This document shows, in pieces, positions 11,548 to 32,449 of a stretch of 64,000 nt of DNA. The DNA comes from Chloroflexota bacterium. GTDB lineage: Bacteria; Chloroflexota; Anaerolineae; Aggregatilineales; Phototrophicaceae. The first letter of the stretch is position 1, and the number at the start of each line of letters is the position of its first letter. The stretch covers positions 1-64,000 of the forward strand of contig JACRPS010000026.1 in NCBI GenBank assembly GCA_016223085.1. Reading direction: 5' to 3'. Below the pieces are notes generated by a model. It was given only the letters and a program-made list of their open reading frames with translations, had not been told where the DNA came from and did no database searches. A program made the position numbers and the translations under genes.

Positions 11548-11831
11548 TACCTTTCCCTCACATACTCGTCTATGATTTCATCCAGCAAATCGTCGTTGAC
11601 GTGGTTAAAAATCTCGCCTTCGGGATAAATGATGATGTTTGGCCCCGCGCCGCACATGCTAAGGCAGTTGGCGATTTCCAGCTTCACCGGCTTCGGGTAC
11701 TGGTCGCCGTTGATCTCGTCCACCAGCGCTTGCAGCCGCTTGAGCAGTTTATCCGCCCGGCCATCCATATTGCAGTACTGCCCCCGGCAGACGACAATTC
11801 GCTTGCGCCGGGGAGTGACGTTATTGGTCAT
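11547..11831 (-). CDS. Thioredoxin-like [2Fe-2S] ferredoxin
   Basis: A 94-residue protein with the cysteine pattern of thioredoxin-fold 2Fe-2S ferredoxins (NuoE/Shethna type): CRGQYC (about residues 16-21) and CLSMCGAGPN about 35 residues later. It probably shuttles electrons to an unidentified oxidoreductase. A longer frame to 11891 exists, but the ATG at 11831 puts the first Cys pair at the usual distance from the N terminus. That start lies inside the last codons of the PIN gene. The stop codon is provided by the palindromic repeat. Confidence 0.85.
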   Translation of the reverse strand: MTNNVTPRRKRIVVCRGQYCNMDGRADKLLKRLQALVDEINGDQYPKPVKLEIANCLSMCGAGPNIIIYPEGEIFNHVNDDLLDEIIDEYVRER

Positions 11832-12282
11832 CACGCTCTGCCTGCGGCGGCTCAAAATCGCCAAGCCACTGGACCCAGGGCAGTTTATCACTCACAACGT
11901 TGAACAATCGCTGGTCGGCTGTCCAGAAATCACATCTCAAATGTTCGGCGACCGCAAGGTACTGCGAGTCGTAAGCAGTAGGCAGATTAAGTTCTGACGC
12001 AAATGTGAGAGCGCGGCGCAACAAATTGTCCGAAATCATCACGCGAATCGTTCTTGCAAGAAGAACTTCTCTGCTCCTAATCGCATCATCCTGAGTCAAA
12101 ATACCCCGGTAAACACTTTTCCGCATGGCAGCGATGATTTCATAACGTAGAAGTACCGGAGCGGCAAGACCAATATCTCGCCCATCTAGATAGCTGAGAA
12201 GCAGATCTGCCTTCACTGTGAGCGGTTCTTCGAGTACAGTAGCGATCAAAATCCCTGAATCACAAACCGCCCAGGATGTCAT
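11821..12282 (-). CDS. PIN-domain ribonuclease toxin (VapC-like)
   Basis: A 153-residue PIN-fold protein. Acidic site residues are visible: Asp in WAVCDSGILIA near the N terminus, Glu in LLRYEIIAA, Asp in TAYDSQYLAVAE and Asp in FWTADQRLF. The full set suggests an active Mg-dependent RNase. It overlaps the antitoxin gene by 23 nt, an arrangement that couples their translation. It is the one complete toxin-antitoxin pair in the window. Confidence 0.87.
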   Translation of the reverse strand: MTSWAVCDSGILIATVLEEPLTVKADLLLSYLDGRDIGLAAPVLLRYEIIAAMRKSVYRGILTQDDAIRSREVLLARTIRVMISDNLLRRALTFASELNLPTAYDSQYLAVAEHLRCDFWTADQRLFNVVSDKLPWVQWLGDFEPPQAERDDQ

Positions 12283-12508
12283 TCAGACGCTCCTCGCGTG
12301 CTTCGTTGAGCAACTCCACTACGCTAACTTCTCGACGACCATACTTGGCGCTCAGTTCAGCCCGCAGTTGGCGAACCTGTTCCAACCAGCTTAATGTCTC
12401 ACTCCTGGGCTGTTCAACTTCCGCACGCGCCTGTTCCAGTAGAGTGATAACTTTATCGTCCGAAAGACGATCAATCAGCGCGTGTAATTCTTCCCGTGCC
12501 GTCGCCAT
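12260..12508 (-). CDS. Antitoxin of the VapBC-like pair
   Basis: An 82-residue, mostly helical, charged protein (ELHALIDRLSDDKVITLLEQ at the start, ending LNEAREERLNDILGGL). It has no clear AbrB or ribbon-helix-helix motif, so identification rests on size, helical composition and its position directly upstream of, and overlapping, the PIN toxin. Proteins of this kind wrap the toxin with a C-terminal helix and usually autorepress the operon. Confidence 0.7.
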   Translation of the reverse strand: MATAREELHALIDRLSDDKVITLLEQARAEVEQPRSETLSWLEQVRQLRAELSAKYGRREVSVVELLNEAREERLNDILGGL

Positions 12509-18389: not shown

Positions 18390-18457
18390 AACCGCCAAGG
18401 CGCAGAGAACGCCAAGAATTAATTTCAAATCTTGGCGAACTTGGCGTCTTGGCGGTT
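18390..18457. repeat. TTGGCG-type long inverted repeat
   Basis: Arms AACCGCCAAG... and ...CTTGGCGGTT of about 30 nt, lying exactly between the convergent hmgA and livF genes. It is placed where a bidirectional terminator is expected. The same right-arm sequence recurs at 29938, 30366 and 32423. Confidence 0.85.
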
Positions 18458-28207: not shown

Positions 28208-28237
28208 GTAGGGGCGGGTTTATAAACCCGTCCCTAC
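28208..28237. repeat. GTAGGG-family palindrome, copy 5
   Basis: 30 bp, GTAGGGGCGGGTTTA and its complement with one difference that would be a G-U pair in RNA. It lies inside the hut operon between hutH and hutU, so it cannot be a full terminator. It carries the hutH stop codon. Confidence 0.9.
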
Positions 28238-29808
28238 AAAACCGTATTTTGTATCGCCTGCTCTTCCACCGCCCGCACGATCGCGCCCGTTTCGACCAGT
28301 TCACGCATGGTATCCACATAGGGGTACATCACGGCGTCGCGCTCCACGAACGGAATGCGAGAGCGAATAAGTTGATAGGCTGCCGCTGTACCCTGCCCTA
28401 GCTTGGCTTCGTGGCCGAGCGTTTCCAGCCGGAAATCTATGCCTTGCGCCGCCGACAGCAGTTCCAGCGCCAGCACGTTTTCGAGATTCTGTGCGATCTC
28501 TGCCGCCTGTCGCGCCGCGATGGAACCCATACTGACGTGGTCTTCTGCGTTGGCTGACGACGGAATCGAATCCACGCTGGCCGGATGCGCCAGCACCTTG
28601 TTTTCGCTCACCAGCGCCGCCGAGGTGTACTGCGCGATCATAAAACCGCTGTTCAGGCCGCCGTCGTTGGTCAGGAACGCGGGCAGCACTCTTCGATTCA
28701 CCTTCTCATCAATTAATCTTGCCAGCCGCCGTTCGCTGATGTTGGCGATTTCCGCCAGCGCGATCTTGAGGTAATCCATCACCAGCGCCACCGGCTCGCC
28801 ATGAAAGTTGCCGCCGCTGAGTACCGTCGCGCCGTCGCCGTCCACAAAAATCAGCGGGTTGTCGTTGGCGGAATTCATCTCCACTTCCAGCGTATGCCGC
28901 GCCCTGGCTATCGCGTCCCGCGCCGCGCCGTGAACCTGCGGCGTGCAGCGCAGGCTGTAGGCGTCCTGCACGTCCAGCGGATCAAACGTCCGCGTGAACT
29001 GCGACCCCTCGACCAGCCGCCGCAAAAACGCCGCCGATTCCGCCTGCCCCGGATGCGGGCGCACCGCGTGAATCCGCGCGTCGAACGCCGCCGGTGTGCC
29101 GCGTAACGCTTCCAGACTCAGCGCCGCCGCGATGTCTGCCGTTTTCGCCAGCATTTCGGCGCGGGCCACCGTCAGCGCGCCCACCGCGCACATCATGCTC
29201 GTGCCGTTGGTCAGCGCCAGCCCTTCTTTCGCCTCCAGTTCCAGCGGCGATAGTCCCGCCCGCCGCATCGCTTCCACGCCGGGCAGCCGTTCGCCCCGGT
29301 AAAAGGCTTCGCCCTCACCGATGATCGGTAGCGCCATATGCGCCAGCGGCGCGAGATCGCCGGACGCGCCCAGCGACCCCTGCGCCGGGATGACCGGGTA
29401 CACCCCGCGATTGACCATCTCCACCAGCGTATCAATCACCACAGGGCGCACGCCGCTGTAACCCTTGACCAGCGTTTGGGCACGGATGACCATCATGGCG
29501 CGCACCGTCGCCGGGTCGAGCAGCGGCCCGACGCCGACGGCGTGGCTCATGATGATGTTACGCTGAAGCTGCTGCACCTTGTCGAGTGGAATCAGGCGGT
29601 CTTTAAAGTCGCCAAAGCCGGTGGTGATGCCGTAGATGATCTCGCCCCGCGCCAGGAAATCTTCCACCGCCCGGCGCGAACGTTTCACGTTTTCAAGCGA
29701 AGCCGGGGCTACACGGACGGTGACATCGGCGGGATGCTCCCACGCAGCGGCCACAGCGGCCACGTCGTCTACCGTCAGATGGTCGCCGTCGAGTTCAATT
29801 ACAGACAT
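28234..29808 (-). CDS. hutH: Histidine ammonia-lyase
   Basis: A 524-residue lyase that deaminates histidine to urocanate. The self-formed MIO prosthetic group comes from Ala-Ser-Gly in [14 protein letters not shown] (about 148-150). Further marks are YGITTGFG near the N terminus and [15 protein letters not shown]. No other MIO enzymes are nearby, and the hutU/hutI/ftcD context supports histidine rather than phenylalanine or tyrosine as substrate. The TAG stop lies within a palindrome. Confidence 0.96.
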
Positions 29809-29889
29809 GATAAAAACTTCCAGAAAGACTAAACGGGCGCAGTCTCAACGCCGCGCCCTTTCATTAAATTATACCTTAAATGCGGTTTG

Positions 29890-29964
29890 AACCGCCATGA
29901 CGCCAAGAGCGCCAGGAAGAAGGAATCAGAAGATAAACTTGGCGTCCTTTGCGTCTTGGCGGTT
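29890..29964. repeat. TTGGCG-type long inverted repeat
   Basis: The left arm starts AACCGCCATGACGCCAAG and the right arm ends GCGTCTTGGCGGTT, with a ~15-nt centre. It lies upstream of hutH and just downstream of the ftcD fossil. The right arm is also part of the 111-bp direct repeat shared with 30366-30476. Confidence 0.82.
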
Positions 29965-29976
29965 AACTTCTTTGCT

Positions 29977-30048
29977 TTAAACTTCCAGCTTCGCCCGTTC
30001 CTTCAGCGCAGCGTGGACGCAGTTTTCTGCCGCCTGTATCCGAGCGCA
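29977..30048 (-). pseudogene. Fossil copy of the ftcD 3' end
   Basis: Read on the minus strand, 23 codons plus TAA give a peptide ending AALKERAKLEV. It matches the last 23 residues of ftcD (…KALKERAKLEV) at 18 positions. The copy lies exactly 428 bp from the original with no gaps and includes the TTGGCG repeat beyond the stop. It has no start codon and is joined in frame to the TGA of the small gene upstream. It is the scar of a local duplication or insertion. Confidence 0.85.
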
Positions 30049-30054
30049 GTCCGG

Positions 30055-30297
30055 TCAGCGTATATCCCGCAGCATCCCAACCACATCCACAGGTGGCAGC
30101 CTGTCCGCATGAGCAGCACGAATCTGCTGGCGCAGCGTTTCGACATCCCGAAACCACGCATCGTAATCAAATGCGGATGCGCTAACAGGTTCTACTTCTG
30201 AAGCAAGTTCTCGTTCGATCAGCGCCCGCACACGCTGTTTGGCGGCGGGTTGCAGTTGGTTAAACTTCTCAATGATTTCACGTTCAAGGGCGCTCAT
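30055..30297 (-). CDS. Orphan antitoxin-like small protein
   Basis: An 80-residue helical protein (MSALEREIIEKFNQLQPAAK, ending VDVVGMLRDIR). Its size and style resemble the antitoxins that precede PIN toxins. No toxin gene follows; instead its stop codon is joined to the duplicated tail of ftcD. It sits inside the hut cluster between ftcD and hutH, flanked by a 111-bp direct repeat. Function as an antitoxin is inferred; it could also be a regulator retained after toxin loss. Confidence 0.6.
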   Translation of the reverse strand: MSALEREIIEKFNQLQPAAKQRVRALIERELASEVEPVSASAFDYDAWFRDVETLRQQIRAAHADRLPPVDVVGMLRDIR

Positions 30298-30365
30298 AAA
30301 CGATCATCTCCCTGCATTCTCAATTCCGATTGTACACGATTCTCGACTGACAATGCCTGATGATT

Positions 30366-30393
30366 CTTGGCGTCCTTGGCGCCTTGGCGGTTA
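30366..30393. repeat. TTGGCG-type repeat, single arm
   Basis: CTTGGCGTCCTTGGCGCC followed by TTGGCGGTT, between the antitoxin-like gene and the ftcD stop. It is the second copy of the arm found at 29938-29964. Confidence 0.75.
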
Positions 30394-30404
30394 ATTTCTT
30401 CGCT

Positions 30405-31934
30405 TTACACTTCCAGCTTCGCCCGTTCCTTCAGCGCCTTATGCACCCGCTCTTCCGCCGCCTGCATTCGCGCGCGCAGTTCCGTAACCGTGTTTAGCCA
30501 GATATGCGCGGCCACCTTGTCGCGCACACCTGCCGCGTTGGCGTGAACGTTCATACTCGCCGCCGTGAAAGCCGCCACCCCCATCGCCGCGCCGGAAGTT
30601 GCGTCGGTCACGCTGTTGACGTTGCCCGTTTCGGCCACTTCCGCCAGCAGTTCCAGCACGTCGGCCACCAGCCGGCACACCTCCAGCGGCACCTGCGCCG
30701 CGCCATGTGTCGCCACTTCCACCGCCTCATCGCGTTCGGCTTTTTCGGCGTCCGTGTCCTTCGGCAGCTTGTAGGCATCCATCACGGCGTCGAACGCCTG
30801 CGCGTCCAGCGTCACGGCGCGTTCCAACGCCACGCGCAGGTTATCGGCCTGCGCCGCGATGTCGTGCATCCGGGCTTCCACGTCGGCATATTTTTTCTTG
30901 CCGATAGTCAGCCGTGCTGCCATCGCCGCCAGCCCTGCCGCCATTGCCCCGGCATAGGCTGCCGCCGACCCACCGCCCGGTGTGGCCGTGCCTGCCGCCA
31001 GCCGTTCGGTGAACGGCGTTTCCTCCTCGCCCTGCCCCATCGCCGCGTACAGCCGCGTTTCCAGTATTTGTTCCGGTTTGAACTGGTCAAGCTGCAAGTA
31101 CCACTGCGCCGCGTCCACCAGCGCCGCCTGCGGAATCAGTCCGACCAGTTCGGTATGATGCACCATCACGCCGTAACGCCCCGCCTCGCGCCGTACCATT
31201 TCCACCACGCGGGCAACCGGCGTGCGCGTGTAGTCGGTCAGATTCATGCTCACCTGCGCCCGACCATCCACCAGCAAGCCCAACCCTTTCACGTAATGCA
31301 GCCCGCCGGATGAATGCCGCACCGCAGCAGCGATCTTCTTGGCGATGCTCACGTCGTCGGTCGTCAGATAGACGTTGAAGGCAATCAGCGGCGCGCGCGC
31401 CCCGATGACCGTCGCCCCGGCTTTGCCCACGCTGGAGGGGCCAAAATCAGGCGCGCGGTTGGGGTCGGTGTTGATGCTGTCTTTCAATACTTCGTACTCA
31501 CCCCGCCGGACATTTTCCAGATTGACCCGCTCCGGTCGCGTCGCCGCCGCTTCGTACAGATAAACCGGGATGCCCAGTTCGTCGCCCACGCGCTGGCCGA
31601 GCCGCCGCGCCAGTTCGATACATTCGTCCATCGTCACGTCCGACAGCGGCACAAACGGCACCACGTCCGTTGCGCCCAACCGGGGATGTTCGCCCTGATG
31701 TTTGTCGAGGTCAATCAGTTCCGCCGCTTTTTTGATGGCCGCGAACGCCGCCTCGACCGCCGCATCAGGCGGCGCGACGAACGTCACCACCGAGCGGTTG
31801 TGATCGTGGTCGCTGGTGCGGTCGAGTACCACCGCGCCAGACACGGACTGTATCGCGTTTACAATCGCATCCACCACGCGGGAACGGCGGCCTTCGGAAA
31901 AATTGGGGATACATTCAACCAGTTTTTGTGTCAT
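30405..31934 (-). CDS. ftcD: Bifunctional glutamate formiminotransferase / formimidoyl-THF cyclodeaminase
   Basis: A 509-residue fusion finishing histidine breakdown. The formiminotransferase half (about 1-300) moves the formimino group from N-formiminoglutamate to tetrahydrofolate; its catalytic His is in GEHPRLGATD (about residue 83). The cyclodeaminase half (about 325-509; ATPGGGSAAAYAGAMAAGLA) releases ammonia and gives 5,10-methenyl-THF. The fused form is like that of animals; many bacteria use separate genes or HutF/HutG. The ATG at 31934 replaces a slightly longer frame because AAGGTG lies before it and the conserved KLVECIPNFSEG follows at once. It is the first gene of the hut cluster. 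Confidence 0.94.
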   Translation of the reverse strand: MTQKLVECIPNFSEGRRSRVVDAIVNAIQSVSGAVVLDRTSDHDHNRSVVTFVAPPDAAVEAAFAAIKKAAELIDLDKHQGEHPRLGATDVVPFVPLSDVTMDECIELARRLGQRVGDELGIPVYLYEAAATRPERVNLENVRRGEYEVLKDSINTDPNRAPDFGPSSVGKAGATVIGARAPLIAFNVYLTTDDVSIAKKIAAAVRHSSGGLHYVKGLGLLVDGRAQVSMNLTDYTRTPVARVVEMVRREAGRYGVMVHHTELVGLIPQAALVDAAQWYLQLDQFKPEQILETRLYAAMGQGEEETPFTERLAAGTATPGGGSAAAYAGAMAAGLAAMAARLTIGKKKYADVEARMHDIAAQADNLRVALERAVTLDAQAFDAVMDAYKLPKDTDAEKAERDEAVEVATHGAAQVPLEVCRLVADVLELLAEVAETGNVNSVTDATSGAAMGVAAFTAASMNVHANAAGVRDKVAAHIWLNTVTELRARMQAAEERVHKALKERAKLEV

Positions 31935-32052
31935 GAAAGCACCTTCAAAAAGAAAAACCGCAGACATCTATCTGCGGTTAATCCTACCTCATTCTGCCGA
32001 AATTGGCGTGTTGATCAGTAGGAACAGGATTATAGATTAAACCGGCCTTGAT

Positions 32053-32422: not shown

Positions 32423-32449
32423 CTTGGCGTCCTTGGCGTCATGGCGGTT
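32423..32449. repeat. TTGGCG-type repeat, single arm
   Basis: CTTGGCGTCCTTGGCGTC then ATGGCGGTT, 34 nt beyond the end of the ABC exporter gene. It is a fourth copy of the arm seen at 18390-18457, 29938 and 30366. Confidence 0.75.

Follow-up and report, generated by a model that had tools for sequence, protein, structure and literature searches.

The spacer between ftcD and hutH in the genome of an uncultured Chloroflexota bacterium probably carries a lineage-specific insertion, in which a vapB antitoxin gene without its toxin partner is accompanied by a partial duplication of the ftcD end; parsimony favours this reading, as the closest relatives compared lack the insertion. The spacer lies within a window of 64,000 nucleotides (the whole stretch of DNA analysed; positions 1 to 64,000 of contig JACRPS010000026.1). 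On the minus strand the order is ftcD, an 80-codon gene, a second ftcD tail, a hairpin, hutH, and then hutU and hutI, with vapB as the sole gene in the insert between ftcD and hutH. The features are listed in Table 1; genomes and loci used for comparison are denoted by G and L numbers.

Table 1. Features of the ftcD-hutH region, in window coordinates.
Feature	Position	Strand	Evidence
ftcD (formiminotransferase-cyclodeaminase), intact	30405..31967	-	Pfam FTCD_N 4.9e-72, FTCD_C 2.1e-53
Direct repeat copy 1: intact ftcD end with 3' flank and a single interspersed-repeat arm	30366..30476	-	repeat comparison
Interspersed repeat arm AACCGCCAAG.CGCCAAGGACGCCAAG (coding strand), single, without inverted partner	30366..30392	-	genome pattern search
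vapB 5' flank, 68 bp	30298..30365	-	no relative elsewhere in 98 family genomes including its own
Predicted orphan vapB antitoxin, 80 aa, without the last five codons of its homologues (DGEDE or similar); no vapC after it	30055..30297	-	homologue comparison
Predicted fossil ftcD tail in its native position; two-base deletion and ten private substitutions	29977..30054	-	tail alignment
Direct repeat copy 2	29938..30048	-	repeat comparison
Inverted-repeat hairpin, complete (two repeat arms)	29888..29964	-	RNA fold -35.3 kcal/mol, z -3.96
hutH (histidine ammonia-lyase)	28234..29808	-	Pfam Lyase_aromatic 2.6e-199

The original prediction, made from the sequence of the window, described a direct repeat at a constant offset of 428 bp, and this repeat is real. 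Over the coordinates first proposed (29938-30048 and 30366-30476) the copies are identical at 92 of 111 bases, and a repeat search returned 29938-30047 against 30366-30475 with 84% identity and the same offset. In a search of the full 6.03-Mb genome the second copy is hit with an E value of 2e-27, far beyond chance, and the two encoded ftcD tails share 18 of 23 residues, exactly as noted. Roughly 27 bp of each copy (29938-29964 and 30366-30392) are an interspersed repeat arm, of which the genome has dozens, so that only about 80 bp, comprising the ftcD tail and its 3' flank, are specific to this locus.

The 80-residue reading frame between the copies was also found as described (30055-30297, minus strand), with its TGA stop in frame with the fossil ftcD reading frame. 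This agreement depends on a 2-bp deletion in the fossil tail, the two bases being present in intact ftcD and in four relatives, and the frame match therefore looks incidental. The duplication itself likely, rather than certainly, extends across the vapB stop codon. The window sequence at this point, CGCTGACCGG, matches CGCTGGCCGA from G005 and G006 at 8/10 bases, a score equalled by 358 of 200,000 random 10-mers from the window with a reference chosen after the sequences had been seen; the same stretch matches G007 at 7/10 bases, but both G013 and the intact copy in the window at only 6/10.

Relatives had been expected to show an empty site with a single ftcD tail, and this is what the four closest ones have. 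By ftcD protein these are G013 (93% identity) and G007, G005 and G006 (89%; range 89-93%), and each has ftcD, one tail, the hairpin and hutH in that order, with no vapB in between. Their ftcD-hutH spacers measure 155 bp (G013), 160 bp (G007), 206 bp (G005) and 201 bp (G006), compared with 596 bp in the window. The small gene does not behave as a conserved hut gene, as it is missing between ftcD and hutH in these four genomes and in G008 and G026. It adjoins ftcD in only one of 30 ftcD loci (L011-L040), that of the window itself, within flanks of up to about 1.5 kb, some of them shortened by contig ends (to about 200-330 bp downstream of ftcD in L020 and L024) and with several matches covering only part of ftcD. 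An ancient conserved arrangement of the small gene and second tail, the finding that would have spoken against an insertion, does not occur among these 30 loci. Conversely, none of eight loci with vapB homologues holds ftcD or hutH, and in G006, G011, G031 and G002 the vapB homologue and ftcD are on separate contigs. The comparison covers few sequences, mostly from fragmented draft assemblies.

Because only the window's locus, of the 30 examined, has vapB beside ftcD, and the single tail of the relatives precedes the hairpin and hutH, the arrangement appears derived and the downstream tail native. Read from sequence, the upstream tail is part of a predicted working ftcD, and the downstream tail is a decaying fossil in its native position beside the hutH hairpin. 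In G013 (L012, G013:C502) a TGA stands in frame early in ftcD, as codon four of the alignable part; this stop may simply precede the true ftcD start.

The intact and fossil tails differ at 19 of 115 sites. In an alignment that includes the 3' flank as far as the repeat arm, the fossil base at 10 of these 19 sites occurs in no other sequence (the four relatives and the intact tail), compared with 4 sites for the intact tail. Differences between the window and G013 at four-fold sites amount to 58/251 in hutH and 80/288 in ftcD. Since the tails differ by less than this, the insertion is probably no older than the split between the window and G013, a rough estimate given that one of the two copies is under constraint. 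The same differences bear on an assembly or binning artefact, in which spacer versions from two strains were joined in one contig. The genome is in 37 contigs and has an estimated contamination of 4.44%, but with tails that differ at 19/115 sites, a fossil that has unique changes and a deletion, and a truncated vapB fused to ftcD sequence, which a strain chimera would not readily yield, we regard such an artefact as hardly credible.

The differences between the tails cluster in columns 40-58 of the alignment (45 of 20,000 permutations), a clustering that is weak by itself as the same patch varies among the relatives too. Within the patch the intact tail is like G005, and the fossil is like G013, G006 and G007, and the two tails may derive from different alleles. 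One way to obtain this pattern would be a joint import of the ftcD 3' end and vapB from a related strain, guided by ftcD homology on one side and micro-homology on the other, which would make the intact tail foreign and the fossil native. Besides the patch, such an import is consistent with the state shared by the window with G005, G006 and G007 at 9 of 11 informative sites in ftcD 1201-1400. However, there is no significant breakpoint along ftcD (the maximum chi-square was reached in 351 of 2000 permutations), and, compared along its full length, the fossil (15/106 differences from G013) is no nearer to G013 than the intact copy is (13/108). Moreover, the other 29 ftcD loci are all without an adjoining vapB. 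The breakpoint scan and the site count do not support a foreign ftcD end overall, although the 19-column patch stays suggestive, and we consider an import of this kind rather unlikely.

The small gene had been described as antitoxin-like, which proved correct. Judged from its context and from homologues within the family and order, the 80-codon gene is a VapB antitoxin of a Chloroflexota VapBC family, minus the last five codons and the toxin partner; the identification rests on this evidence because no Pfam or NCBIfam model reached its cut-off for the 80-aa protein. Eight homologues (L041-L047 and L126) match VapB over residues 1-80 with 52-76% identity, and several relatives carry a VapC partner. 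In the usual type II arrangement the antitoxin gene overlaps a gene for a PIN-domain VapC, and the small gene is homologous to such antitoxins; here, in contrast, vapC is absent and vapB is five codons short. The C-terminus of the homologues usually reads ...LRDIRDGEDE or a near variant (L045 diverges after DGE), whereas the window gene stops at ...LRDIR, at the junction. No VapC sequence was found at the locus, and the four VapC matches in the genome lie elsewhere. The AlphaFold model of the 80-aa protein has four helices (mean pLDDT 77.4, pTM 0.38) and no PDB match at E<=10.

An intact, overlapping VapC that starts in the vapB stop region is present in four of the eight homologues (L042, L043, L047 and L126). 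In the other four vapC is broken or missing: L041 has an internal deletion and L046 a frameshift, and none was found in L044, where vapB itself contains a stop codon, or in L045. The tally takes in homologues matching VapB residues 1-80 at 52% identity or more, excluding distant or partial matches, and leaves out L068 (which records the L043 locus again), L066, L067 and L069-L071. The VapC of L043 matches PIN_2 (2.9e-09) and PIN in Pfam, and TIGR00028 at 1.2e-06, below the cut-off of that model. Across L041 (G006), L044 (G072), L045 (G002) and L046 (G065), the vapC break is at or just past the vapB end in three, and at L044 hairpin-like sequence lies within the first codons of vapC. Where records carrying such genes are named, they are metagenome bins of Anaerolineae, Chloroflexi and Phototrophicales; a further bin, which accounts for 3 of 14 loci, has the title Pleurocapsa minor and is probably misnamed. 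The window also holds a complete VapBC pair on the minus strand at 11821-12508 (VapB, 82 aa, 12508-12260; VapC, 153 aa, 12282-11821), of a related but distinct type and 18 kb from the orphan vapB.

Two origins had been proposed for the locus, namely an insertion that duplicated its target and a toxin gene lost when the repeats recombined. The empty site and single tail of the relatives support the first. The second is rejected on logical grounds, as recombination of one tail with the other would take out vapB along with one repeat and leave a single tail. The toxin would instead have been lost, or have never arrived, via the other junction, inside the last vapB codons. At this right junction, the sequence ceases to match the coding region of G006 vapB at codon 80 and becomes ftcD-like; at the left junction, the single repeat arm behind ftcD ends and the 68-bp vapB flank follows.

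We tentatively propose that a fragment of a vapBC locus was captured in one step; the remaining probability falls to the imported ftcD end discussed above and to a two-step history, both of which share the insertion. In a one-step capture, the first junction would have formed where the interspersed repeat arm behind ftcD ends, and the second would have joined the vapB 3' end to a point in ftcD some 120 bp farther upstream. Re-copying of the ftcD end, by template switching or homology-facilitated illegitimate recombination, would then have created the direct repeat. The orphan VapB would be a passenger without a selected role in histidine use. Homology-facilitated illegitimate recombination and template-switch capture likewise have one junction in a repeat, the other in short or doubtful homology, and a partly duplicated target; they differ from our case in that here the mechanism is only proposed and no donor was found. 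When the vapB 5' flank was searched alone in 98 family genomes, including its own, the matches elsewhere spanned at most 32 bases with E values of 0.04-0.99, which is the level of chance, and the only other VapB match in its own genome is 32% identical. Homology to the donor at the repeat arm is unsupported, because no arm was found within about 1.5 kb upstream of the eight other vapB loci; one weak match lies 1.7 kb downstream of the L044 vapB start.

In a two-step history, a whole vapBC module would have arrived first, duplicating more of the ftcD end than is seen today. A deletion would afterwards have taken away vapC together with the 5' portion of the second ftcD copy, and so fused vapB codon 80 to the fossil. 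Toxin loss beside this vapB is recurrent, with four of the eight close homologues having no intact vapC, and orphan antitoxins are described as often being remnants of broken systems (PMC7354431). Nevertheless, neither a vapC remnant nor a more extended piece of ftcD is present at the locus, and two events are required where one would do, which makes this history possible but unlikely. Transposon insertion was rejected: the insert has no transposase, the duplication exceeds 100 bp, unlike the short target-site duplications of fixed length that transposons make, and no inverted pair of at least 16 bases bounding the insert was listed, in an incomplete listing that also misses the 29888-29964 hairpin.

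The arm at the left junction belongs to an interspersed 27-bp repeat, AACCGCCAAGnCGCCAAGnnCGCCAAG, which has a 9-base internal rhythm and occurs often as single arms and sometimes as inverted pairs 40-60 bases apart. Copies are found within the window at 29888-29964, 30366-30392, 32423-32449 and 18391-18456, and genome-wide. With up to two mismatches allowed, the 17-base core of the arm has 101 matches in its own genome (41+60), compared with 26 (13+13) for a reversed-pattern control, and variants like the arm at 30366 are present in 24 of the 98 family genomes, its own included. An inverted partner, sought with a strict pattern, is present at 8 of 30 repeat loci inspected. Like REP and BIME repeats, the family is short, dispersed and multicopy, with arms able to pair as hairpins, and unlike them many copies in its own genome are single arms. 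The arm at 30366 and the hairpin at 29888-29964 are REP-type insofar as their copies are dispersed and can form a hairpin. Insertion sequences are described as targeting REPs (PMC1525189; PMC3733652).

A counterpart of the 29888-29964 hairpin precedes hutH in G013, G007, G005 and G006. In an Rfam search no match reached its gathering score, and two of the three sub-threshold matches fall on the hairpin. The ftcD-hutH spacers of G005 (L014) and G006 (L015) contain a second GC-rich hairpin-like sequence, GGGCGCACAGCCGTGCGCCC, within the loop of the conserved hairpin, so the spacer appears to have taken insertions more than once.

Rather than a passenger, the orphan VapB could have been retained to neutralise related VapC toxins, the anti-addiction role proposed for orphan antitoxins (PMC7354431). 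Its frame has stayed open across 80 codons while the adjoining fossil decays, and the genome contains complete vapBC pairs, the one 18 kb away (11821-12508) and another on contig C4. However, the VapBs of these pairs are only distantly related (32% identity or undetected), and the five C-terminal codons are absent; we consider retention for this role improbable. More speculative still, and with very little probability in our view, is a general scheme in which foreign gene fragments are captured at the repeat arms AACCGCCAAG while part of the adjacent gene is duplicated, and a toxin-free VapB caught in this way persists in the histidine operon, where it is transcribed constitutively and serves for anti-addiction.

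Large numbers of orphan antitoxins have been reported, among them VapB orphans of M. tuberculosis (PMC7354431), and a survey of 2,181 marine MAGs gives 3,099 of them, with Chloroflexota orphans said to outnumber cognate systems (PMC12654330). The orphan vapB resembles solitary antitoxins left by toxin loss in being an antitoxin without a toxin, and differs from them in that its site of insertion, the duplicated segment and the fossil can also be seen. Transformation is reported to make repeat-bordered duplications in Streptococcus pneumoniae, at the far larger scale of about 100 to about 900 kb (PMC3784515). Literature searches, which did not use the locus name, returned no report of this locus.

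The locus is a real lineage-specific scar and a fresh example of known processes, orphan antitoxins being common. Its insertion explains the odd repeat, and the 80-aa gene should not be mistaken for a conserved component of the hut pathway. The general picture is unchanged by what is a neat but ordinary genome scar, in which the entry of a toxin-antitoxin remnant into an operon can be read, with both junctions, the empty site of the relatives and the decaying duplicate all visible.
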